50,306 nt of DNA from Anaerocolumna aminovalerica (lineage in GTDB: Bacteria; Bacillota; Clostridia; Lachnospirales; Lachnospiraceae). The notes under the pieces are model-generated. The model did not search any database. It saw nothing but the letters and a program-made list of their open reading frames with translations, and was not told where the DNA came from. Positions 35,684-48,244 of this stretch are shown piece by piece. The translations under genes were made by a program, and so were the position numbers. Each line of letters opens with the position of its first letter. Position 1 is the first letter of the stretch. The stretch is taken from positions 1 to 50,306 of the forward strand of contig NZ_FOWD01000032.1 of NCBI RefSeq assembly GCF_900115365.1, given 5' to 3'.

Positions 35684-37255
35684 ATGAGAAAGTTTAGTAA
35701 AGTATTAGCTCTTACACTTGTACTTACAATGGTTATGTCATCAGTATTAACCGGGTGTAAAAAAGAAAATGGAACAGAGGAAACACAAACAAAAACACAA
35801 ACACAAGGCGCTACCCCCCAGGCAGACCAAGAAGCTGAGATTGAAAAACCTAAGAAGATTACGATCATGGTTGATGGTACACTATTTACCAAGGCAAATG
35901 GCCGTGATGCATTCGAAGCGAAATGGGAAGAATTATCTGGAATTGATTTAGAAATTATCCAACCTGATCATGATGCTTATTATGATGTAGTTGGACAGAC
36001 CCTTGCAAGCGGTGATTGGCCAGATGCAATTCTTTTAAGTTCTACTTTTTATTCAGGATATGCGGAAGAAGGAGTTCTATGGGATATGACAGATTTCTGG
36101 GAGAATTCTGAATTAAAAGCTTCAGGAAGAATTAATAACGAAGCTATAACAGATAGCTTATATATAGATGGTAAGCTTTACGGACTATCTCCGGCCCGTG
36201 GTAACGGTTGTATTACCTATGTAAAGAAAGCATGGCTTGAAAATGTAGGTTTGGATGTTCCAACTACATATGATGAATATATTGCTATGTTAGATGCATT
36301 TACGAAAGGTGATCCAGACAACAATGGCATAGATGGAGATACATATGGAGTATCCAGTGCAGGTTTGATCGGTGTAGAAGCACCATATACCAACTATCTG
36401 CCGGAATTCTATCAGGATGCCTTTCCCAGTTTTTACAAAAATGCAGATGGACAATGGGTAGATGGGTTTTCAGAAGAAGCAATGGCAGGAGCATTGGGAA
36501 GGCTGAGAGATGCTTATGAAAAAGGATATATTGACAAAGAATCTCTCACAAATGGTACAAGTGACTGCCGTAATAAATTCTATGAAGATAAGTTTGGTGT
36601 ATTCACTTACTGGGCTGGAACATGGGCCACTAATATGAGAACAAATCTTGAAGCAAATGGTTTCGATGGAGAATTAATTCCAATTGAACCAATTAAAGAA
36701 GTGGGTGCTTATCTTGAAAGACAAGCACCAGTATGGTGTGTTACTGCTAAAGCTGAAAATCCAGAAGGTGTAGCTAAATATTTTATTGAATCTATGCTTG
36801 ATGGCGGCGAAATGCAGCAATTATTTACATATGGTGTAGAAGGTACTCACTGGTCTACAAAAGAGGAAGAAGTATGTGGAAAAATATATGAAGAAGGACA
36901 ATTCCACATGTTAGAAAACTTGGAGACAAAAGGTACTCAGTATACAAAGAACCATATCGATCCTCTTTTATCCATTGGTAATTTCACTGCATTTGAAGAT
37001 CCAGGTGCAGAGCAGGTAACTGCAGATACAAGAATATCCCAGGAAACCTTTAATAATCATTCCAAAGTAGTACAACTAGTTCCTTCCACAGATGTAATGA
37101 GCCAGTACAATGGTGATTTAACAACATTAAAGAGAGAAATTATTGCCAATGTTGTAACTCAGGGTATTTCATTTGAAGATGAAATGAAGAGATATGAAGA
37201 AGAAGGCGGAGCAGAATGGTCGAAAGCTATCGTTGATTCTCTGAATGCAAAATAA
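35684..37255 (+). CDS. Extracellular solute-binding lipoprotein (pectin oligosaccharides)
   Basis: This 523-residue lipoprotein has a basic start MRKFSK, a hydrophobic stretch, and lipobox VLTGC with lipidated Cys25, then a Thr/Gln/Lys-rich tether (residues 28-45). The body is a family 1-type sugar-binding fold (ITIMVDGTLFTKANG; DWPDAILLSSTFYSGYAEEG). It contains DPDNNGIDGDTYG at about residues 206-218, a calcium-binding-like Asp/Asn loop common in this subgroup. It is anchored outside the membrane and feeds the two permeases that follow. The ligand is inferred from the operon to be a rhamnogalacturonan or galacturonan oligomer. Confidence 0.9.
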   Translation: MRKFSKVLALTLVLTMVMSSVLTGCKKENGTEETQTKTQTQGATPQADQEAEIEKPKKITIMVDGTLFTKANGRDAFEAKWEELSGIDLEIIQPDHDAYYDVVGQTLASGDWPDAILLSSTFYSGYAEEGVLWDMTDFWENSELKASGRINNEAITDSLYIDGKLYGLSPARGNGCITYVKKAWLENVGLDVPTTYDEYIAMLDAFTKGDPDNNGIDGDTYGVSSAGLIGVEAPYTNYLPEFYQDAFPSFYKNADGQWVDGFSEEAMAGALGRLRDAYEKGYIDKESLTNGTSDCRNKFYEDKFGVFTYWAGTWATNMRTNLEANGFDGELIPIEPIKEVGAYLERQAPVWCVTAKAENPEGVAKYFIESMLDGGEMQQLFTYGVEGTHWSTKEEEVCGKIYEEGQFHMLENLETKGTQYTKNHIDPLLSIGNFTAFEDPGAEQVTADTRISQETFNNHSKVVQLVPSTDVMSQYNGDLTTLKREIIANVVTQGISFEDEMKRYEEEGGAEWSKAIVDSLNAK

Positions 37256-37272
37256 GATATAATGTAAATGTG

Positions 37273-37318
37273 GGGAGGGGCAAGGGAATAAGGTATCACT
37301 TTTTGCCACTCCCTTTTT
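37273..37318 (+). terminator. Intercistronic attenuating terminator
   Basis: Stem GGGAGGGGCAA / TTGCCACTCCC (one mismatch) followed by TTTTT, between the binding-protein and permease genes. Partial termination here would give more binding protein than permease, as in many sugar ABC operons. Confidence 0.7.
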
Positions 37319-37350
37319 GAACTTTTCAAGAGGAAGGGAAAACTGGATAG

Positions 37351-38304
37351 ATGAGCAGAAATAAGAAAGAAAAGACTGTGGTTAGTACAAAACCACTCAG
37401 GACTAGAATATATATACATAGATGGTTTTATTTAATGATTCTTCCGGTATTGGTATTTGCCATAATATTTTTCTACCTGCCAATGTTTGGAATCAGGTAT
37501 GCATTTTTTGAATATAAGGGTATTTTAGAACCAGTATTTGTTGGATTTGAGAATTTTAAAAAAATGTTTTCTATGGCCGGATTTTGGTCGGCTTTTAGAA
37601 ACACTATGGAGCTAAGTATTATTAAATTAATTGTTAATACAGGTGCAGCAGTAATTATTTCATTATTGTTAAATGAAATTACAGGCTTGAAGTTTAAAAA
37701 AGCTGCCCAGACAATTATATATCTTCCCCACTTTATGTCCTGGGTTGTTACTGCATCTGTATTTGCATTAATTTTATCACCAACCCAGGAAGGATTAGTG
37801 AATTCCTTTTTAACCAGTCTCGGTTTTGTAGAAAAAGGTGCTGAAATATATTTTTTAGGAAGTAACAGATGGTGGCGTCCAGCTTATTATATCATTAATA
37901 TATGGAAAGAAACTGGATGGGGTACGATTATATTCATGGCAACATTAGCAGGGATTAATCCGGAACAATATGAAGCAGCGTCCATTGATGGTGCCGGAAG
38001 GTGGAATAAGATGCGATTTATTACTTTGCCAGCACTTGCTAATACAATTATTACAGTACTTATATTAAACCTTGCAAAAATAATGAATCTATTTGAATCT
38101 GTTTTCGTATTACAAAATGATGCGGTAGTCAGACAATCAGATGTACTTCAGACTTACATATATACTCAGACATTTAATAGTGGGGCTTTGCCAAACTATG
38201 GTTACACAACAGCAGTAGGTCTTGTTAAATCTTTAGTAGCTTGTGCCCTTGTTCTGATATGTAATTATGCAAGTAAAAAAGTTAGAGGCCGTGGAATTGT
38301 ATAG
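37351..38304 (+). CDS. Sugar ABC transporter permease (LplB-like)
   Basis: This 317-residue membrane protein has about six transmembrane segments (WFYLMILPVLVFAIIFFYLP first) and the EAA loop YEAASIDGAGRWNKMRFITLP. It is the same type as the permease at 5388 but clearly diverged. It works with the adjacent YtcP-like subunit. As in the first locus, no ATPase gene accompanies the pair, so a general sugar ATPase (MsmK/MsmX type) must be shared. The ATG lies 9 bases before the next downstream codon block and follows a weak GGAAGGGA site. Expression is probably damped by the hairpin at 37273. Confidence 0.88.
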   Translation: MSRNKKEKTVVSTKPLRTRIYIHRWFYLMILPVLVFAIIFFYLPMFGIRYAFFEYKGILEPVFVGFENFKKMFSMAGFWSAFRNTMELSIIKLIVNTGAAVIISLLLNEITGLKFKKAAQTIIYLPHFMSWVVTASVFALILSPTQEGLVNSFLTSLGFVEKGAEIYFLGSNRWWRPAYYIINIWKETGWGTIIFMATLAGINPEQYEAASIDGAGRWNKMRFITLPALANTIITVLILNLAKIMNLFESVFVLQNDAVVRQSDVLQTYIYTQTFNSGALPNYGYTTAVGLVKSLVACALVLICNYASKKVRGRGIV

Positions 38305-38313
38305 GAGGGCAGG

Positions 38314-39168
38314 ATGATGAAGAGAGAAAAGAAAAAAAAGAAGATTACATTGTTTTCCGTATGTTTGGCAATTGTTTTTTTACTGGTATGTTTTTTAATG
38401 ATCGTACCACTTTGGAAAGTATTTGTGGACTCATTAGATCTTCATACTGCTTATGGTATGAAAATGTGGCCTAAGAAATTTGGGTTTGACGGATATATTT
38501 CCGTATTTACAAATCCAACCTTGTATCAACCTCTGTTAGTATCGGTTATAACAACGATTGCAGGTACATTTATCGGATTGATTTTATCCACTTTTGGTGC
38601 CTATGTTTTGATTCAATGGGAGATGCCAGGGAGAACATTTATCGCTAATATGTTGTTATTTACCATGATTTTCAGCGGTGGTATGATTCCTACATACCTG
38701 GTTATTAATAACTTACATTTAACCAATACACTATGGTCAGTTATATTAGTTCCAGCATTAAATGTATATAATCTGGTACTAATGCGTAATTTCTTTGAGG
38801 GTATTCCTGTGAGTCTATTCGAGTCGGCAACCATTGATGGCTGCACTCCAGTGGGGATATTTTTTAGAATTGTACTTCCGCTATCGAAAGCAGCATTAGC
38901 AGCAATTGGTCTTATGTTTGCTGTGAGTTACTGGAATGACTATACAAATTATAAATTATATATTACCAATTCGGATTTATATAATTTTCAGATGAAGTTA
39001 AGAAGTGTTATTTTAGGCAGTGATTTACCAATAGCTAATGGTTCAGCTACAGCAAATACAGTTAAAAATGCAGCTACTATGGTAGCAATCATTCCATTTA
39101 TGATTCTCTATCCATTCTGCCAGAAATATTTTGTAACTGGTGTAAATATTGGAGCGGTGAAAGAATAA
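38314..39168 (+). CDS. Sugar ABC transporter permease (YtcP-like)
   Basis: This 284-residue integral membrane protein has a first hydrophobic segment ITLFSVCLAIVFLLVCFLMI, the EAA loop FESATIDGCTPVGIFFRIVLPL and the C-terminal QKYFVTGVNIGAVKE of this family. It starts 9 bases after the previous stop behind AGGAGGG; either of two adjacent ATGs could be used. It forms the channel with the LplB-like subunit and receives substrate from the lipoprotein encoded upstream. Confidence 0.88.
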   Translation: MMKREKKKKKITLFSVCLAIVFLLVCFLMIVPLWKVFVDSLDLHTAYGMKMWPKKFGFDGYISVFTNPTLYQPLLVSVITTIAGTFIGLILSTFGAYVLIQWEMPGRTFIANMLLFTMIFSGGMIPTYLVINNLHLTNTLWSVILVPALNVYNLVLMRNFFEGIPVSLFESATIDGCTPVGIFFRIVLPLSKAALAAIGLMFAVSYWNDYTNYKLYITNSDLYNFQMKLRSVILGSDLPIANGSATANTVKNAATMVAIIPFMILYPFCQKYFVTGVNIGAVKE

Positions 39169-39228
39169 CGTCTGACTTAAAATATTGGGAATAAACTTGG
39201 TAGTTGATTTGTTGACTTGGAGGACAAT

Positions 39229-39939
39229 ATGAGTAGAATTTTTTGGGCCGGTGATTCCACAGTAAAGGAGAATGATTTTACCACCTATCCTCAAACAGGG
39301 ATCGGCCAGGGAATAAGACTTTTTATTAAAAAAGAGATTGAAATTATAAATCATGCTGAAAATGGAAGAAGTACCAAGTCATTTCTGGACGAATTTCGTT
39401 TGGCAGCAATATATAATGATATAAAAGAAGATGATTTTTTATTCATTCAATTCGGACATAATGATTCTAAAATAGAAGATCCAAGCAGGTATACGAAAGC
39501 TTTTGGTGACTATCAGGAAAATTTAGAGAAGTTTGTTAACGCAGCCAGAAATAAAATGGCTCATCCTGTATTTATTACACCACTTTGCAGAAGGTATTTT
39601 GTAGATGAAACTCATCTGGAGGAAAAAATTCATGGAGACTATCCAAAAGCAATGATAGAAACAGGGAAAAAACTTAAGGTACCGGTCATTGATCTATTCT
39701 CCATGAGTAGGGAATTCCTGCTGAAAGTGGGAGATGAAGGCAGCAAAAGGTATTTTATGCATTTAGCGCCTGATGAATATTCTAATTACCCTGATGGCCT
39801 TACGGATAATACTCATTTAAAATATGAAGGGGCAGTGGCCTTTGGGGGACTTGTTGCAAAGGGACTTAAGGAACTTGGAGATATCTATTGGAATCTATTA
39901 ATAGAACCAGAGAGATTAGACATTGGGCTAAAGGTTTAG
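39229..39939 (+). CDS. Rhamnogalacturonan acetylesterase-like SGNH hydrolase (CE12)
   Basis: This 236-residue SGNH/GDSL esterase has the nucleophile Ser10 in AGDSTV, the Gly/Asn oxyanion residues in GHNDSK (Asn78), and the Asp193-His196 pair in DNTHL. This pattern matches the YesT/RhgT group that removes acetyl groups from rhamnogalacturonan I. It has no signal peptide, so it acts on imported acetylated oligomers. The ATG at 39229 follows TTGGAGG; the upstream TTG at 39217 is part of that ribosome site. It stands between the transporter genes and the first GH43 gene in the same operon. Confidence 0.9.
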   Translation: MSRIFWAGDSTVKENDFTTYPQTGIGQGIRLFIKKEIEIINHAENGRSTKSFLDEFRLAAIYNDIKEDDFLFIQFGHNDSKIEDPSRYTKAFGDYQENLEKFVNAARNKMAHPVFITPLCRRYFVDETHLEEKIHGDYPKAMIETGKKLKVPVIDLFSMSREFLLKVGDEGSKRYFMHLAPDEYSNYPDGLTDNTHLKYEGAVAFGGLVAKGLKELGDIYWNLLIEPERLDIGLKV

Positions 39940-39987
39940 GAGTCTCTTGGCTGAATGTCAAATTATCGAGAAAGCAGAGGAACATTC

Positions 39988-41565
39988 ATGGGAGAAAAAT
40001 TATTATGGAAAGCGGATTTAGGAGATGGATCTTTTAGAAATCCCATTCTTTTTGCAGATTATTCGGATCCTGATGTGATTCGGGTAGGTGATACATACTA
40101 TATGACTGCATCCAGTTTTAACTATACACCTGGCCTTCCTTTATTAATTTCAAAAGATTTAGTGAACTGGAAATTAAAGAATTATGCAGTAGAAAATATA
40201 AATTATGATACCTATAAAAATCCGGCTCATGCAAAAGGAATATGGGCACCTGCTATCCGCTTTCACCATAATAAATTTTATATTTATTATGGAATGCCAG
40301 ATGAAGGTATCTTTATGGTAAGTGCAGAGAATCCTTTGGGCAAGTGGAGTGTTCCAATCTGTGTGCTGGAAGGCAAAGGGCTGATAGACCCTTGCCCTTT
40401 TTGGGATGAGGATGGGAATGCTTATGTAATTCACGGATATGCCAATAGCCGTATTGGATTTAAAAGTATATTAGGAATATTTCCTATGTCTTACAATGGG
40501 GAGAAAGCTATAGGAGAAGATAAATTTATATTTAATGGAACGAAAACACAACCAACCATAGAAGGACCTAAGATCTATAAAAGAGATGGGTATTATTACA
40601 TCTTCGCTCCAGCTGGCGGAGTTAAAACAGGCTGGCAGACAGTATTGCGATCCGAAAATATCAACGGTCCTTACGATGAAAGGATTGTAATGCATCAAGG
40701 TGCTACTTCTATAAATGGTCCCCATCAGGGAGGTTTAGTAGATACACCAAGTAATGAGGAGTGGTTTCTTCATTTTCAGGACAAAGGTGTCTATGGACGA
40801 ATTGTTCACTTGCAACCTGTCAGGTGGAGAGATGGGTGGCCGGTCATTGGAGAAAGTCCAGAAGAAACAAGCCTGGGAGAGCCGGTTCTAATCCATAAGA
40901 AACCGGGTGGAAATCCTGTGTGGGATCCTGCTTATCTAGATGCAAGTGATGATTTCAAGAAGAAAGAACTATCTCTCCAATGGCAATGGCTTGGTAATCA
41001 CAGACAAGAATTCTATTCTTTATCAGAAAGAATGGGATATTTACGTATGTATAGCCTGAATCCATCCGGTAATGATCCGGTAACCCTTTGGCAATCTTCA
41101 AATGTACTGACACAAAAGATTGTATGTCCGTCTTTTAAAGCAGAAATAAAGATGGGGATACAAGGGTTAGGTGAGAAGGAACAGGCAGGAATGGTATTAA
41201 TGGGTGGCCAGTATGCTTATCTTGCAGTAAGAAAGAAACAGAATAACTTATCTGTAGTTTATGTTGAATCTTTCGGAGAAAAGGATGTCAGGGAAGAGAA
41301 AGTGATTATGGAGAGGTTAATCTCTAATGATATATCTGAAATTATTATCAAGCTTATTTTTCATGAGAATAAAGGGGAGCCTGTTGCCGGATTTTGTTTT
41401 AGTGTGAATGATGGAACCTATATAGAAACAGGGTATACCTTTGTGCCTTCAAAGCATACCTGGGTAGGCTCCAGATTAGGGCTATTCTCTATTGCCTTAG
41501 ACAATAAAGAGAAACATGGATATGCAGATTTTGCTTATCTAAAGGTAGATGCATTTGAAGGATGA
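39988..41565 (+). CDS. GH43 glycosidase (arabinosidase/xylosidase type)
   Basis: This 525-residue protein has an N-terminal five-bladed GH43 propeller and a C-terminal beta-sandwich (about residues 310-525) of the kind in longer beta-xylosidases. The catalytic triad is visible: base Asp27 (DYSDPDV), Asp134 (LIDPCP) and acid Glu192 (IEGPKI). There is no signal peptide. It probably removes arabinose, xylose or galactose side units from pectin fragments; the exact sugar is not readable. The start at 39988 follows AGAGGA and gives an N-terminus like other family members. An in-frame ATG at 39955, 12 bases from an AGGAG, would add 11 residues and cannot be excluded. Confidence 0.88.
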   Translation: MGEKLLWKADLGDGSFRNPILFADYSDPDVIRVGDTYYMTASSFNYTPGLPLLISKDLVNWKLKNYAVENINYDTYKNPAHAKGIWAPAIRFHHNKFYIYYGMPDEGIFMVSAENPLGKWSVPICVLEGKGLIDPCPFWDEDGNAYVIHGYANSRIGFKSILGIFPMSYNGEKAIGEDKFIFNGTKTQPTIEGPKIYKRDGYYYIFAPAGGVKTGWQTVLRSENINGPYDERIVMHQGATSINGPHQGGLVDTPSNEEWFLHFQDKGVYGRIVHLQPVRWRDGWPVIGESPEETSLGEPVLIHKKPGGNPVWDPAYLDASDDFKKKELSLQWQWLGNHRQEFYSLSERMGYLRMYSLNPSGNDPVTLWQSSNVLTQKIVCPSFKAEIKMGIQGLGEKEQAGMVLMGGQYAYLAVRKKQNNLSVVYVESFGEKDVREEKVIMERLISNDISEIIIKLIFHENKGEPVAGFCFSVNDGTYIETGYTFVPSKHTWVGSRLGLFSIALDNKEKHGYADFAYLKVDAFEG

Positions 41566-41679: not shown

Positions 41680-43608
41680 ATGATAGAAGACAGAATGAAG
41701 ATAGAAGAAGCTATATTAAGGGAGAACCTGGATCTATTAAAAGAAATATTAGCAGAAGATCCTTCTACCATTGATTATAGGGATGAATCAGGAGTTTGTA
41801 TGAGTTTTATTGCTGCAAAAACTGGTAATCTCAGTATTGTAAAGTATATTGTTGAATATTCCAGAGCCAGTATGAACACGGTAGATTCAAAGAATCGAAA
41901 CATATTACATTATGCTGCAATGTCTGGAAATCCCCAATTAGCCAAATATCTGGTTGAAAAGGTTGGATTATCCCCTGTTACTCCTGATGTAGATTTAATT
42001 ACTCCCTTTGAGATTGCTCACGAGAAAGGGTATGAAAAATTAGAAAAATATTTTGAACAAATCTGTGGTGCCGGGCTAAGTGAAATGTATAAAAATCCAA
42101 TCCGTACTGGTTTTTACCCTGATCCTTCTATTGTAAGGGTTGGAGAGGATTATTATATGGTGAATTCCTCTTTTATATATTTTCCTTGTATTCCAATATC
42201 CCACTCAAAAGATTTAATACATTGGCATATTATAGGATTTGCAATAACAAATCCTGACTGGTCATATCTGGATCATCTTGAAGGAGGGCGGGGGTATTGG
42301 GCACCAGATATCTCTTACTATGAAGGACGGTTCTATATTACGGCCACTTACCGTTTGAATGATAACGGCAGGATCTATCGGAAACAAATGGTGGTATCTT
42401 CTGAAAAACCAGAAGGTCCTTATAGTAAACCTGTATTCATTGATGAAGATGGAATAGATCCTTCTATCTTTAATGATGAGGATGGAAAAAGATATATGCT
42501 ATTAAACCGTGGAGCAAGAATCTTTGAATTAAATAAAGATGCAACCAAACAGATATCAGAAGCAAAGCTTTTATATTATGGAGACCAGAAACGAGCACCG
42601 GAAGGTCCTCATCTATTAAAGAAAGACGGATTTTATTATTTATTTTTAGCAGAAGGTGGAACTGGACCAGGCCATAGAATTACAGTAGCACGCTCTGGAA
42701 CTTTATTTGGCAATTATGAACCATGTCCTTACAATCCTATCATGGCTCAATGGGATGAGAAAGCAGGTATTAGCAGGTGTGGCCATGGTAAGCCGGTACA
42801 GACCCAGAATGGAGAATGGTACATGGTCTATCTGTGCGGCCGAATGCTTGGAGATGGATATACGATTCTAGGCAGAGAAACAGCTCTGGATCCAATACAA
42901 TGGACTTTAGATGGCTGGCCAATTGTGAATGGGCTTAAGGGTCCAAGTACATTGCAGAAGAAACCGAACTTACCGGAATGTATCTGGGAAAATAGGGATT
43001 TTGATGATTTTGATGATGATAGCCTTAGTGTAGATTGGGTGTTTCCAAGGCCCCCAGAAAGAAATGGGATACAATTAAAGAATAGTAAGTTATGGATCAG
43101 AGGGAGTAAAGCACCTCTTAATTCCATAGAAGCCCGCAATATTGTCTTAAGACGTCAGAAAGATTTCGTATTTACTGCTGAAACAAAAATGCTGGTAGTA
43201 CCTATGTATCCAGGACAGGACGCGGGACTTATCTGTTACTATGATGAGAATTCATGGGTAAAGTTTGGTGTATTTGCTGCTTCTGATGGCAGCCGGTACA
43301 TAAAATTAGCGGAACATATTGGGTTAGAGGATTTTCACTCCAGAGAAGCTGTAGTACTAAATTCCAATGAGAGAGAAATATATTTACAGGTTCGAACCAA
43401 TTATTTACGACGTGAATTTTATTATAGTATGGATGGAGTAAGCTATTCCTGTTTTACAACCCTTAACCCTGTTACTTATTTAAGTGATGAAGGACTTAAG
43501 ATGGGGAAACGTTTTACTGGAGCGATGGTAGGGATGTATGCTTATGGAGGGGAGAAGGATTTAGAAGTACCTTTTGAGTATTTTAGATATATAAGTGGCA
43601 GGCATTGA
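41680..43608 (+). CDS. GH43 glycosidase with N-terminal ankyrin-like domain
   Basis: This 642-residue protein opens with about 130 residues that look like three to four ankyrin-type repeats (GVCMSFIAAKTGNLSIVKYI; RNILHYAAMSGNPQLAKYLV; LITPFEIAHEKGYEKLEKYF). A full GH43 domain follows, with Asp148 (YPDPS), Asp260 (GIDPS) and Glu308 (APEGPH), and a C-terminal beta-sandwich to 642. There is no signal peptide, so it is cytoplasmic. GH43 side-chain removal from pectin or arabinan fragments is likely. The ankyrin part probably binds another protein. The junction has no stop or frameshift, so this is a true fusion. It starts at an ATG behind AAGGAGAG and its stop overlaps the ABC gene's leader. Confidence 0.88.
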   Translation: MIEDRMKIEEAILRENLDLLKEILAEDPSTIDYRDESGVCMSFIAAKTGNLSIVKYIVEYSRASMNTVDSKNRNILHYAAMSGNPQLAKYLVEKVGLSPVTPDVDLITPFEIAHEKGYEKLEKYFEQICGAGLSEMYKNPIRTGFYPDPSIVRVGEDYYMVNSSFIYFPCIPISHSKDLIHWHIIGFAITNPDWSYLDHLEGGRGYWAPDISYYEGRFYITATYRLNDNGRIYRKQMVVSSEKPEGPYSKPVFIDEDGIDPSIFNDEDGKRYMLLNRGARIFELNKDATKQISEAKLLYYGDQKRAPEGPHLLKKDGFYYLFLAEGGTGPGHRITVARSGTLFGNYEPCPYNPIMAQWDEKAGISRCGHGKPVQTQNGEWYMVYLCGRMLGDGYTILGRETALDPIQWTLDGWPIVNGLKGPSTLQKKPNLPECIWENRDFDDFDDDSLSVDWVFPRPPERNGIQLKNSKLWIRGSKAPLNSIEARNIVLRRQKDFVFTAETKMLVVPMYPGQDAGLICYYDENSWVKFGVFAASDGSRYIKLAEHIGLEDFHSREAVVLNSNEREIYLQVRTNYLRREFYYSMDGVSYSCFTTLNPVTYLSDEGLKMGKRFTGAMVGMYAYGGEKDLEVPFEYFRYISGRH

Positions 43609-43622
43609 GTTCGGAGGAAAAA

Positions 43623-45356
43623 ATGGAACAAACCAATAATCATACATTAAGAAAGTTATTTGAGTATTACAAGGGACATTATTATAAATTTATATTATCA
43701 GGCATATTCTATGCGATTAAACATAGTCCAACATGGGCGATGCCTATTGTTATCGCTAATATTGTTAATCATGTGACATTTGGAAAGAGTAACGTTATAC
43801 AATTAGTTCTATTGAATGGGGCTAATATGGCGGGGTTGATCCTCTTAAATGTTCCTATGAATTATCTTCATACCCATTTTCGTAGTTATGCTATAAGATC
43901 CGTAGAAGCTAATTTAAGAAATTCTTTAGTACGTAAGTTACAGCAATTATCCATATCCTATCATAAAGATATGGAAGCAGGACGTTTACAATCTAAGATT
44001 ATACGTGATGTGGAGAATGTTGAAACCTTATCTTCACAGTTGTTTGTAAGTTTATTAAATATACTGATTAATATTGTAGTTGCTCTGGGAATCACAGTGA
44101 TAAAGAATCGAATTGTATTTGTCTTTTTTCTATTAACCATTCCAGTTGCTGCTTTGACTATTGTTGCATTTCGAAAACGGATAAATAAACAGAATCATAA
44201 GTTTCGTAAAGAAATGGAGGAGACTTCTGTTAAGTTCATGGAGATGGTAGAAATGATTCCTATAACCAGGGCTCATTCCCTTGAAAAGGTGGAAGTAGAG
44301 AAGATGGAAAACCAGGTCAAACATGTAGCAGAAGAAGGGTATCATTTGGACATTATTCAGGCAAACTTTGGATCAGTAAGCTGGGCCATTTTTCAGATAT
44401 TTCAGGTAGGGTGCCTGGTTTTTACCGCCTTTCTGGCACTAAAGAAGCAAATTCAGGTTGGTGACATCGTACTCTACCAAAGTTATTTTGCTACGATAGT
44501 GAATCAGGTATCCTCATTAATTACCTTAGTGCCTGTCATATCCAAAGGTTTGGAATCTGTATCCAGTATTGGTGAAATTCTTGATGCACATGATATTGAA
44601 GATAACAGTGGGAAATTAAAATTAAAAAGTATAGATGGAGTTTATGAATTTCATGATGTTAAATTCTCCTATAATGAAGAGGATAATATTCTTAATGGTA
44701 TCAACCTTTTGGTAAAACCTGGTGAGACTATTGCACTTGTGGGTGAATCTGGTGCTGGTAAATCTACTATTTTAAACATGGTCATTGGTTTTATCCTTCC
44801 AAAGTCAGGAGATATGTTCATTGATGGACATAACATGAAAGAGATAGATCTTAGAACATATCGGAACCATATCGCAGTTGTACCTCAGAATACTATTCTT
44901 TTTTCAGGTTCCATCCGGGATAATATTACATACGGCTTAACTTCTTATTCTGAAAAACAATTAACAGAAGTAATAAAAGCAGCTAATCTATCAAGTGTCA
45001 TTGAAGCATTACCAGATGGTCTTGATACTATGATCGGGGAACATGGAGATAAGCTTTCAGGTGGTCAGCGCCAGCGGATTTCTATTGCAAGAGCGCTTAT
45101 CCGTAATCCGAAAGTGATTATTCTGGATGAAGCAACTTCAGCTTTGGATAGTTTATCGGAGAAACTAATACAGGATGCATTAAACAATCTAATTAAGAAT
45201 AAAACAACTTTTATAGTGGCCCATCGGTTATCCACTATTCGCCAGGCTGATAAGATCTGTGTAATTAAAAATGGGGTGTGTGCTGAATGTGGTACTTATG
45301 AAGAACTTATGGAACTTAGAGGAGCGTTTTATCAAATGAAATCGATACAGTCTTAA
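43623..45356 (+). CDS. ABC half-transporter (membrane domain fused to ATPase)
   Basis: This 577-residue protein has an N-terminal six-helix ABC exporter domain (about residues 20-300) and a C-terminal ATPase with Walker A GESGAGKST (374-382), Q-loop VVPQNT, signature LSGGQRQR (478-485) and Walker B VIILDEATSALD (498-509). It is complete and probably works as a homodimer. Exporters of this type move lipids, peptides or drugs outward, and some move oligosaccharides. It is not the ATPase partner for the binding-protein permeases, which need a separate MsmK-type subunit. The ATG at 43623 follows GGAGGA, 14 bases after the ankyrin-GH43 stop, so the two are tightly coupled. Confidence 0.92.
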   Translation: MEQTNNHTLRKLFEYYKGHYYKFILSGIFYAIKHSPTWAMPIVIANIVNHVTFGKSNVIQLVLLNGANMAGLILLNVPMNYLHTHFRSYAIRSVEANLRNSLVRKLQQLSISYHKDMEAGRLQSKIIRDVENVETLSSQLFVSLLNILINIVVALGITVIKNRIVFVFFLLTIPVAALTIVAFRKRINKQNHKFRKEMEETSVKFMEMVEMIPITRAHSLEKVEVEKMENQVKHVAEEGYHLDIIQANFGSVSWAIFQIFQVGCLVFTAFLALKKQIQVGDIVLYQSYFATIVNQVSSLITLVPVISKGLESVSSIGEILDAHDIEDNSGKLKLKSIDGVYEFHDVKFSYNEEDNILNGINLLVKPGETIALVGESGAGKSTILNMVIGFILPKSGDMFIDGHNMKEIDLRTYRNHIAVVPQNTILFSGSIRDNITYGLTSYSEKQLTEVIKAANLSSVIEALPDGLDTMIGEHGDKLSGGQRQRISIARALIRNPKVIILDEATSALDSLSEKLIQDALNNLIKNKTTFIVAHRLSTIRQADKICVIKNGVCAECGTYEELMELRGAFYQMKSIQS

Positions 45357-45496: not shown

Positions 45497-46588
45497 ATGA
45501 AATTTTATAGATATACAGATAATTATTTAAAGCATTTCCAGGGAGAAATGAAGAAATGGAATTATGAAGACGGCTGCGTGTTAATGGGGTGTGTTCTCCT
45601 ATATCAGGCAACTGGAGATGAGAAATATCAGGAATTTGTTCTAAAATATCTTAATGAATACATAACCAATGAGGGTACCATAAAGTATTACGAGGAAGAG
45701 AAATATAACATCGACAGTATTAATACAGGAAAAGTATTGTTCCATGCTTATGAGTGGACTGGAAGAGAAAAATATAGAAAGGCAATAGAAGTATTGATGA
45801 ATCAACTCCGTAAACATCCAAGAACAAAAAGCGGAAACTTCTGGCACAAGATGATTTATCCCAATCAAGTCTGGTTGGATGGACTATATATGGCACAACC
45901 ATTCTACATGATGTATGAAACCAAATATAATAAGAAGGAGAATTATAGCGATATCATTGAACAATTTAAAAATGTAAGAAAATATCTTTATAATGAAGAA
46001 AAAGAACTATATTATCATGCCTATGACCAGTCAAAAGAACTCTTTTGGGCGGATAAAGAAACCGGACAGTCTCCAAACTTCTGGCTTCGTTCTATGGGAT
46101 GGTACCTTATGGCACTGATTGATGTAATGGATGAGATGGAGGAATCTATCTTTGAACATTACAAAACATTAGAAGATTTATTCCGTGAGGCAATAAAAGG
46201 AATCCTAAAATATCAGGATCCAAAAAGTAAATTATTCTATCAGGTAATAGACAGAGCTGATATTAAGGATAATTACCTCGAGACTTCCGGCTCTGCTATG
46301 ATTGGATATTCTATTCTAAAGGCATGTAGAAAAGGTGTATTATTAAAAGAAAAATATCAGGAAATGGGTGAAGTAATCGTAGATTCTCTGACAGAAAATA
46401 TGTTGATAGAGGAAGATGGAACATTAAAATTATCTAATATGTGTTCTGTTGCTGGACTAGGTCCTTCTGATAATCCACGTCGTGATGGAAGTGTGGAATA
46501 TTATCTGTCAGAGCCAATTGTATGTGATGATCAAAAGGGTGTTGGGGCTTATATGATGGCATATGCACAGAAATTAATGATTTTCTGA
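45497..46588 (+). CDS. GH105 unsaturated rhamnogalacturonyl hydrolase (YteR/YesR-like)
   Basis: This 363-residue (alpha/alpha)6-barrel enzyme of family GH105 has the general acid Asp128 in QVWLDGLYMAQPF. Other signatures are FWHKMIYP, YHAYDQS, SPNFWLRSMGWYL and the late YLSEPIVCDDQKGVGAYMMA. Members hydrolyse the unsaturated galacturonyl residue left at the non-reducing end by rhamnogalacturonan or pectate lyases, giving a 4-deoxy-keto-uronate. It is cytoplasmic. This implies lyases act outside the cell, from genes not in this window. It starts at an ATG behind AAAGGAAG after a 140-base gap. Confidence 0.93.
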   Translation: MKFYRYTDNYLKHFQGEMKKWNYEDGCVLMGCVLLYQATGDEKYQEFVLKYLNEYITNEGTIKYYEEEKYNIDSINTGKVLFHAYEWTGREKYRKAIEVLMNQLRKHPRTKSGNFWHKMIYPNQVWLDGLYMAQPFYMMYETKYNKKENYSDIIEQFKNVRKYLYNEEKELYYHAYDQSKELFWADKETGQSPNFWLRSMGWYLMALIDVMDEMEESIFEHYKTLEDLFREAIKGILKYQDPKSKLFYQVIDRADIKDNYLETSGSAMIGYSILKACRKGVLLKEKYQEMGEVIVDSLTENMLIEEDGTLKLSNMCSVAGLGPSDNPRRDGSVEYYLSEPIVCDDQKGVGAYMMAYAQKLMIF

Positions 46589-46696
46589 TCTGGAAATAAA
46601 TTAAGTTACATAATAAAACCTTGAAATTTTTATTTCATACAAATGTATAAAACCCTGGTGTGAAGTTTTACCTACAAGTGAAAGGAAAATGGTTCA

Positions 46697-48244
46697 ATGA
46701 AACTTAAGATTATTTATCTAACATCAAGAAATGCTGTATTAGAGATCAATGATGGAGGTATTTTTCATACAAAAGCTCCATATTCACTTAAGCTAAATGG
46801 AGAAGATTATGGAACTACCGATAGAATCATTACGGGTATCTATAATTTAAAACCTGATTCAGAGTATATTCTGTCAATCGAGAATAATGATATACAGAAC
46901 AGTATTACTTTTACCACCTTATCTGAGTCTTATACTCTTAATGTAAAAGATTTTGGTGCAAGGGGGGATGGAAGTAATGATGATACCTGTTGTATTCAGG
47001 CTGCCATCATGGCATGTCCTGAGAATGGAAGAGTATATATACCAGAAGGAACTTATCGGATTACAAGTATCTTTTTAAAAAGTAATCTAAGACTGGAGAT
47101 TGGGAAAGGTGCTGGGCTTAAAGCTTACACATCAACGGAAAACCACCCGATTATGCCTGGTCTAATTCAAAACTACGATGAAACAGAGGAATATAATCTT
47201 GGAACCTGGGAGGGAAATCCTCTTACTATGTATTCAGGAATCATTCACGGAATCAATGTAGAGAACGTAGTGATATATGGTCAGGGTATCATTGATGGAA
47301 ATGCCAATTATGATAATTGGTGGAAAAATCCAAAAGAAAAAGGGATTGCATGGCGTCCACGAACTATATTTTTACAGCAATGTAATAATGTTGTGATTGA
47401 GGGAATTACAGTTCAGAATAGTCCAAGTTGGACCGTTCATCCCTATTTTAGTAAAAATTTAAAATTCATAGGAATGTCCATTATAAATCCCAAGGATTCA
47501 CCAAACACGGATGCCTTAGATGTGGAATCCTGTTGTAATGTGGATATTACAGGGGTGTATTTTAGTGTAGGGGATGATTGTATTGCTATAAAATCCGGTA
47601 AGATATATATGGGTGCAAAATATAAAACACCTTCAAAATCGATTACCATTCGTCAGTGCTGCATGAGAGATGGACATGGTTCCGTTACCATTGGCAGTGA
47701 AATGGCTGGAGGGGTTCAGGATTTAACTGTGAAAGACTGCATATTCCTTGATACCGACCGTGGTCTTCGGATTAAGACCAGAAGAGGCAGAGGAAAAGAT
47801 GCCATTATTGACAATGTTGTATTCGACCATATCAAGATGGATGGGGTCATGACACCTTTAGTTGTAAACTGCTTTTATTTCTGTGATCCAGACGGGCATA
47901 CGGCTTATGTCCGGGACAAAGCTCCAATGCCAGTGGATGAACGTACTCCGGAGATAAAACAGTTGTTCTTTCGTAATCTGGAATGTAAGAACTGCCATGT
48001 GGCAGCAGTATATATCTACGGCCTTCCAGAGAAAAAGATTGAAGAAATAATCCTTGAAAATATCTTCTTTGACTATGCTGAGGATACCAAATCCGGAATG
48101 CCTGCTATGATGGATGACTTGGAACCGGTGAGTAAGATGGGAGTGTTCATTCATAATGTGGAGAAGCTTACTATGAAGAATGTAGTGGTAAAAGGGCAGG
48201 TTGGTGAGGATATAATCTTAAGAAATGTTGATCATATTATATAG
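46697..48244 (+). CDS. GH28 polygalacturonase-family enzyme, cytoplasmic
   Basis: This 515-residue protein has an N-terminal fibronectin-III-like domain of about 80 residues (ending ITFTTLSE) and a right-handed beta-helix. The GH28 active site is complete: NTD at 270-272, Asp293-Asp294 in GDDCIAIKSG, His327 in DGHGS and RIK at 358-360. Without a signal peptide it should cleave galacturonate from imported oligomers, most likely as an exo-enzyme, since the bacterial exo-group (PehX-like) carries this N-terminal domain. Rhamnogalacturonase activity is the alternative. It is the last gene of the operon, followed by a strong hairpin terminator. Confidence 0.93.
   Translation: MKLKIIYLTSRNAVLEINDGGIFHTKAPYSLKLNGEDYGTTDRIITGIYNLKPDSEYILSIENNDIQNSITFTTLSESYTLNVKDFGARGDGSNDDTCCIQAAIMACPENGRVYIPEGTYRITSIFLKSNLRLEIGKGAGLKAYTSTENHPIMPGLIQNYDETEEYNLGTWEGNPLTMYSGIIHGINVENVVIYGQGIIDGNANYDNWWKNPKEKGIAWRPRTIFLQQCNNVVIEGITVQNSPSWTVHPYFSKNLKFIGMSIINPKDSPNTDALDVESCCNVDITGVYFSVGDDCIAIKSGKIYMGAKYKTPSKSITIRQCCMRDGHGSVTIGSEMAGGVQDLTVKDCIFLDTDRGLRIKTRRGRGKDAIIDNVVFDHIKMDGVMTPLVVNCFYFCDPDGHTAYVRDKAPMPVDERTPEIKQLFFRNLECKNCHVAAVYIYGLPEKKIEEIILENIFFDYAEDTKSGMPAMMDDLEPVSKMGVFIHNVEKLTMKNVVVKGQVGEDIILRNVDHII

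Follow-up and report, generated by a model that had tools for sequence, protein, structure and literature searches.

A conserved ankyrin-type domain on a family 43 glycosidase of Anaerocolumna aminovalerica and its possible coupling to a second GH43 enzyme

The ankyrin-bearing enzyme and its locus

The window, as the whole analysed stretch of 50,306 nucleotides is called here, belongs to contig NZ_FOWD01000032.1 of Anaerocolumna aminovalerica. An open reading frame at exactly 41680-43608 encodes a protein of 642 amino acids, hereafter Ank-GH43, with an ATG start and an AGGAG a few bases upstream. It lies in an island with the following features.

35684-39168, + strand: sugar importer, consisting of a solute-binding protein (35684-37255) and permeases (37351-38304 and 38314-39168), from synteny
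39217-39939, + strand: GDSL esterase, a recurrent cluster member (Pfam Lipase_GDSL_2; synteny)
39955-41565, + strand: GH43u, a second GH43 + GH43_C2 enzyme of 536 amino acids, immediately upstream of Ank-GH43 (Pfam; tree)
41680-42075, + strand: ankyrin-type domain (Ank) of Ank-GH43, residues 1-132 with repeats at about 1-131 (Pfam Ank_2, Ank_4, Ank and Ank_3; orthologue alignment and conservation)
42088-42921, + strand: catalytic domain GH43 of Ank-GH43, residues 137-414, with D148, D260 and E308
43003-43590, + strand: GH43_C2 domain of Ank-GH43, residues 442-637 (PF17851, E 3.9e-41)
43623-45356, + strand: ABC protein of the exporter type with membrane and ATPase domains (Pfam ABC_membrane and ABC_tran; synteny)
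45497-48244, + strand: pectin genes, encoding a GH88-family protein (45497-46588) and a GH28 enzyme (46697-48244) (Pfam)

The binding protein of the importer is assigned by Pfam and the NCBIfam matches of the permeases are below the cut-off, while for the GDSL esterase the NCBIfam match to pectin acetylesterase PaeY falls far short of the cut-off. The ABC gene likely starts with the ATG at 43623, as inferred from a GGAGG box, that is, 14 bases past the stop of Ank-GH43, which is the spacing given in an earlier sequence-only reading of this DNA. A large part of the gene order of the island is found again in relatives. A gene for an ABC protein of the exporter type is found repeatedly downstream in these catabolic clusters; in 10 of the 27 displayed loci, it lies no more than three genes past Ank-GH43 and in the same orientation.

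The ankyrin-type domain is matched by Ank_2 with an E-value of 3e-11 and 44.2 bits (Pfam cut-off 27.3), and also above the Pfam cut-offs by Ank_4 (3.8e-9), Ank (1.4e-6) and Ank_3 (4.1e-6); Ank_5 (1.8e-4) is under its cut-off. A chance origin of the repeats is ruled out by these matches. With borders set by eye, the domain consists of a degenerate repeat 1 (about residues 1-34), repeat 2 (35-68), repeat 3 (69-102), and a capping repeat 4 (103-131). The single Ank_2 match found in the genome of A. aminovalerica is that of Ank-GH43. The catalytic domain is complete, since Glyco_hydro_43 (PF04616) aligns over its positions 1-288 of 288 to residues 137-414 (E 8.9e-82). D148, D260, and E308, which we take to be the GH43 base, pKa modulator, and acid, are kept in all 28 aligned orthologues; the assignment is consistent with PDB titles that name D15, D128, and E187 mutants, as query residue 137 aligns with chain residue 4. 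The earlier description of about 130 ankyrin-type residues in front of a complete GH43 domain with its three catalytic acids is therefore borne out by the Pfam domains and by these 28 orthologues.

No signal-peptide-like N-terminus was seen among 24 Ank-GH43 N-termini, GH43u, and three intact fusions of the two enzymes, and the top 15-residue hydropathy in these N-termini is 1.55 versus 2.31 for the solute-binding protein of the window. Therefore, Ank-GH43 is probably cytosolic, in agreement with the cytoplasmic setting proposed before. The gene context suggests hydrolysis of pectic side chains as its putative activity.

AlphaFold places helices at the expected ankyrin sites, with a mean pLDDT of 58 when the domain is folded alone and almost without relatives; in the full model, pLDDT stays below 50 across almost the whole stretch of residues 1-145. 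In Foldseek searches, the top matches of the low-confidence domain model include ankyrins, none of them at E <= 0.001, and GH43 enzymes are among the best 50 matches of the whole model. Since the AlphaFold confidence is low, the ankyrin fold is assigned from the sequence.

The best PDB sequence relative of Ank-GH43 is 6ms2 (527 bits), which is BlXynB, a GH43 enzyme from Bacillus licheniformis (PDB codes: 6ms2 and 6ms3). Its GH43 and C2 domains align to residues 135-639, with 47% identity in the Foldseek alignment. However, the match starts at chain residue 28, leaving no room for an ankyrin domain, and BlXynB has a longer loop at the position that corresponds to about residue 230 of Ank-GH43. 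Closer at hand, the nearest well-supported sister group is a clade of Ank-less GH43 enzymes from the same family (10 rows, 47-49% identity), in which the GH43 motif is preceded by only 5-18 residues and the loop near 230 has four extra residues. Human glutaminase (PDB codes: 5u0k and 5uqe) is likewise a metabolic enzyme with its own ankyrin repeats and a weak Foldseek match (5u0k, E 0.49), but the enzyme is unrelated, its ankyrin repeats lie at the C-terminal end, and the resemblance is one of principle only. Among the titles and abstract starts listed in searches of open-licence papers, no description of a bacterial Ank-GH43 protein was found.

Distribution and origin of the architecture

Ank-GH43 is a conserved architecture, of which 28 readable cases were found in the family and order samples and in Monoglobus pectinilyticus; the same fusion is thus found in other genomes, as the sequence-only reading had proposed to check. 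In the family sample of 299 genomes, 25 match the Ank query: 20 have a readable Ank-GH43 (G093 among them), one is cut at a contig end (G277), and four match by ankyrin proteins without GH43. G277 is counted among the 21 genomes of the family sample used below, and left out of the 28 readable cases. The order sample of 116 genomes gave 10 matches, seven of them new. M. pectinilyticus, placed in the order Monoglobales by its record, has one Ank-GH43, which is annotated merely as a family 43 glycosylhydrolase and sits among housekeeping genes. Its record (L116, NZ_OY725742.1) is labelled a plasmid; as it carries era, recO, scpB, and valine--tRNA ligase, it looks like a piece of the chromosome.

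Among the 398 genomes of the phylum sample, the Ank part was matched in two genomes, both from the family of the window, and in none outside it; the matches outside the family (1e-12 limit) begin past the Ank domain, and the Ank profile gave no match to 18 loci from the phylum search. A match in Enterococcus raffinosus spanning residues 3-621 was rejected, since the protein is a plain GH43 enzyme of 514 amino acids and the match extends beyond it into the gene before. A whole-protein search of genome contigs returned four relatives, all Ank-less, and a search of a viral collection returned one distant GH43.

The weak Ank matches in G031, G157, G173, and G276 were also rejected as Ank-GH43, since the proteins concerned, whose sequences were inspected by reading, have no GH43 match. 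Other ankyrin proteins were encountered along the way. Tandem genes for ankyrin-rich proteins occur in two genera (L107:6827-10087 in G276 and L111:4935-8024 in G173), the first genes encoding 324 and 337 amino acids and the second genes 755 and 686, and similar long ankyrin-rich proteins are encoded in G157 (L108) and on another contig of G173 (L045). G024, from the genus of the window, encodes an ankyrin protein of 381 amino acids (L110:9380-10525) with a piece of HSP70 at residues 2-44 (Pfam E 2e-10), an odd fusion of an HSP70 fragment and ankyrin repeats.

The first of two trees grouped 20 rows with Ank in a clade (98/95) separate from 10 Ank-less relatives (99/99). In a second tree, which included all 28 cases and more Ank-less rows, the 28 Ank-bearing rows and the Ank-less G039 formed a clade with support of 100/97. 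The 28 rows without G039 had support of 49/88 and were recovered in 46% of 200 bootstrap trees, a low support that reflects the very long branch of G039 and a bootstrap that had not settled. Since the 28 rows and G039 form one clade, the simplest reading is that Ank was gained once. Overall, Ank-GH43 is an orthologous GH43 family without signal peptides, found in genomes with pectin genes, with an N-terminal Ank domain that was apparently acquired in a single event. The domain is present in 28 of the 29 rows of the clade, so that the domain recognised in the sequence-only reading is both real and conserved. G039 is the sole row without it; its GH43 enzyme (L130:1520-2962) shares several residues with the Ank clade, has a long branch, and likely represents either a loss of Ank or an early offshoot, placed on the margin of the clade or just within it. 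In the genome of G039, no GH43u match was found at 1e-60.

Association of Ank-GH43 with GH43u

GH43u lies directly upstream of Ank-GH43 on the same strand in nine of the 28 cases (the window, G055, G266, G033, G174, G041, G132, G119, and G778). In three more, the two are joined in a single frame as GH43u-Ank-GH43, with 1178 (G194), 1126 (G045), and 1128 residues (G271). By Pfam, each of these intact fusions has two GH43 and two GH43_C2 domains with Ank in between, and their N-terminal halves are GH43u orthologues, as judged from the tree and from 562-703 bits against GH43u of the window. In G271, the fused chain replaces the two genes in the same gene order, after the GDSL gene. A fourth fusion, in G093 (L038:8003-11447), is broken within the C2 region of GH43u, by either a sequencing error or a real break. 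The other 15 cases have no adjacent GH43u; in G768, it is upstream with two genes in between, and in G024, it is about 9 kb upstream. A GH43u-type gene is present somewhere in the genome in 27 of the 28 cases, the exception being G253, where G041 is counted by a neighbour with a split match and Monoglobus by another record of the same strain. The best PDB relative of GH43u is a bifunctional GH43-CE protein from Bacteroides eggerthii (PDB code: 6mly), in which a GH43 domain is likewise joined to a second enzyme; its fused partner is named as an esterase-type domain, whereas GH43-Ank-GH43 has a second GH43.

The enzyme pairs, 15 in all, were concatenated for a tree, on which the four fusions require three changes, two of them forced by the starred branches. 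Forcing the four into one clade costs 24.65 log units (AU p 0.0034, an optimistic value as the tested group was picked after an earlier tree), and a single fused clade is rejected on these alignments. Label shuffling gave a value as low in 143 of 500 trials, and the fusions show no more clustering than shuffled labels do. The first Ank repeat of the window is intact, as in solo orthologues, which in this post hoc comparison argues against Ank-GH43 of the window being a split-off fusion.

Co-occurrence by itself is less telling. GH28 is found at 1e-60 in all 21 Ank-GH43 genomes of the family sample. Among GH28-bearing genomes, GH43u is found in 18 of 21 with Ank-GH43 (19 of 21 if G041 is counted) versus 17 of 46 without it (p 0.0002, uncorrected for relatedness); these tallies were made by hand from match lists and the tests were computed. 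However, GH43u is also found in all seven genomes that hold only the complete Ank-less sister enzyme, and the partnership of the two enzymes is thus independent of Ank. Because the Ank-less relatives share this trait, the mere presence of GH43u in the same genomes was set aside as an argument for a role of Ank. GH43u is upstream-adjacent or fused in 13 of 28 Ank-GH43 cases versus 1 of 10 Ank-less ones (Fisher p 0.059, uncorrected for relatedness; the 10 rows omit the partial match in G039, with which the control is 1 of 11). Adjacency or fusion of GH43u is the sole feature that separates the Ank group from the Ank-less group, and the difference is borderline.

Possible roles of the ankyrin domain

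The leading account, plausible although short of probable, is that Ank serves as a coupling or docking domain between GH43u and Ank-GH43 in a cytosolic pair, and the two enzymes may be physically paired intracellularly. On the usual view, pectic oligosaccharides taken up by bacteria are degraded to completion in the cell by separate enzymes. In the proposed arrangement, Ank would be docking module and architectural spacer at once, with C-terminal repeats that would run into the first part of its own GH43 domain through the short conserved joint, and with an N-terminal side that would be the attachment site of GH43u, covalent in some relatives and non-covalent in the window. Both GH43 enzymes would then work as one cytosolic unit, clipping side residues from pectic oligosaccharides delivered by the adjacent importer, the substrate being suggested by the gene context only. 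The full form of this proposal, an intracellular scaffold in which the two enzymes have repeatedly become one chain and otherwise form a non-covalent pair, with pectic oligosaccharides passing between the sites, is a speculative extension and rather unlikely as a whole. If the coupling is true, two proteins and a single natural fusion would suffice to test directly an intracellular glycosidase assembly built on a conserved Ank coupler, and a catabolic enzyme from a bacterium would be employing ankyrin repeats in an unusual way. The natural GH43u-Ank-GH43 chains show which enzyme occupies which side of Ank.

Several observations count against a coupling to GH43u. Neighbouring genes can fuse without contact between their proteins; more than half of the cases (15 of 28) have no adjacent GH43u, G253 has Ank without a close GH43u, and the gene in M. 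pectinilyticus is in a housekeeping locus. Ank is conserved to about the same degree in solo, fused, and adjacent cases (Ank/GH43 identity ratios of 0.62, 0.66, and 0.59). The concave positions of the classical binding groove, which we assume from designed ankyrins to be the partner-binding positions, are the less conserved ones in Ank-GH43 (1.54 bits over 17 positions versus 2.53 over the 74 others). The conserved sites include the loops that follow the second helix in each of repeats 2 and 3 (EYSxxSxN and ExVGLSPxxGD), outside the classical groove. Such a pattern is more in line with a fixed structural contact of Ank, with its own GH43 domain or with a partner, than with binding through the classical groove.

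Nearly as likely as the coupling to GH43u, and consistent with the same loops, is a role of Ank in cis only, in which the domain packs on its own GH43 or C2 domain and, with no partner protein involved, moulds the entrance to the active site or affects stability or self-association. Ank is present throughout the clade, G039 apart, regardless of whether GH43u is adjacent; the joint into GH43 is conserved among orthologues; and the Ank clade differs from the Ank-less sister clade by a loop near residue 230 that is shorter by four residues and by fixed differences in GH43 and C2. However, clade-specific residues are to be expected on any long branch, and a role in cis only leaves the repeated fusion of GH43u onto the N-terminal side of Ank unexplained. 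Even in that case, Ank would be a GH43 accessory domain for which no description was found in the open-licence titles and abstract starts searched.

Ankyrins commonly bind proteins, and some solo loci lie outside pectin clusters, so that Ank might dock on another partner encoded elsewhere or mediate homo-oligomers; with no candidate found and with variable classical binding positions, this appears improbable. The sequence-only reading had suggested a tether to a protein of the island, either the ABC protein or another enzyme. The second option stands in the form of GH43u, which is fused in several relatives: if the partner of Ank is an island protein, GH43u would be a better candidate than the downstream exporter. 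Anchoring to the ABC protein would accord with the recurrence of its gene downstream, but of the 27 displayed loci only four have this gene immediately downstream in the same orientation, some others have it on the opposite strand, none has it fused, and the membrane domain is of the exporter type, which makes the ABC protein a very unlikely partner. Least credible of all is a functionless domain accreted by chance, as might be read from the first repeat, degenerate in several members, and from the lack of Ank in G039, since the mean information over the 28 rows, 1.27 bits for residues 1-42 and 3.46 for GH43, is 2.55 for residues 43-100 and 2.20 for residues 101-132, above that of C2 (2.01).
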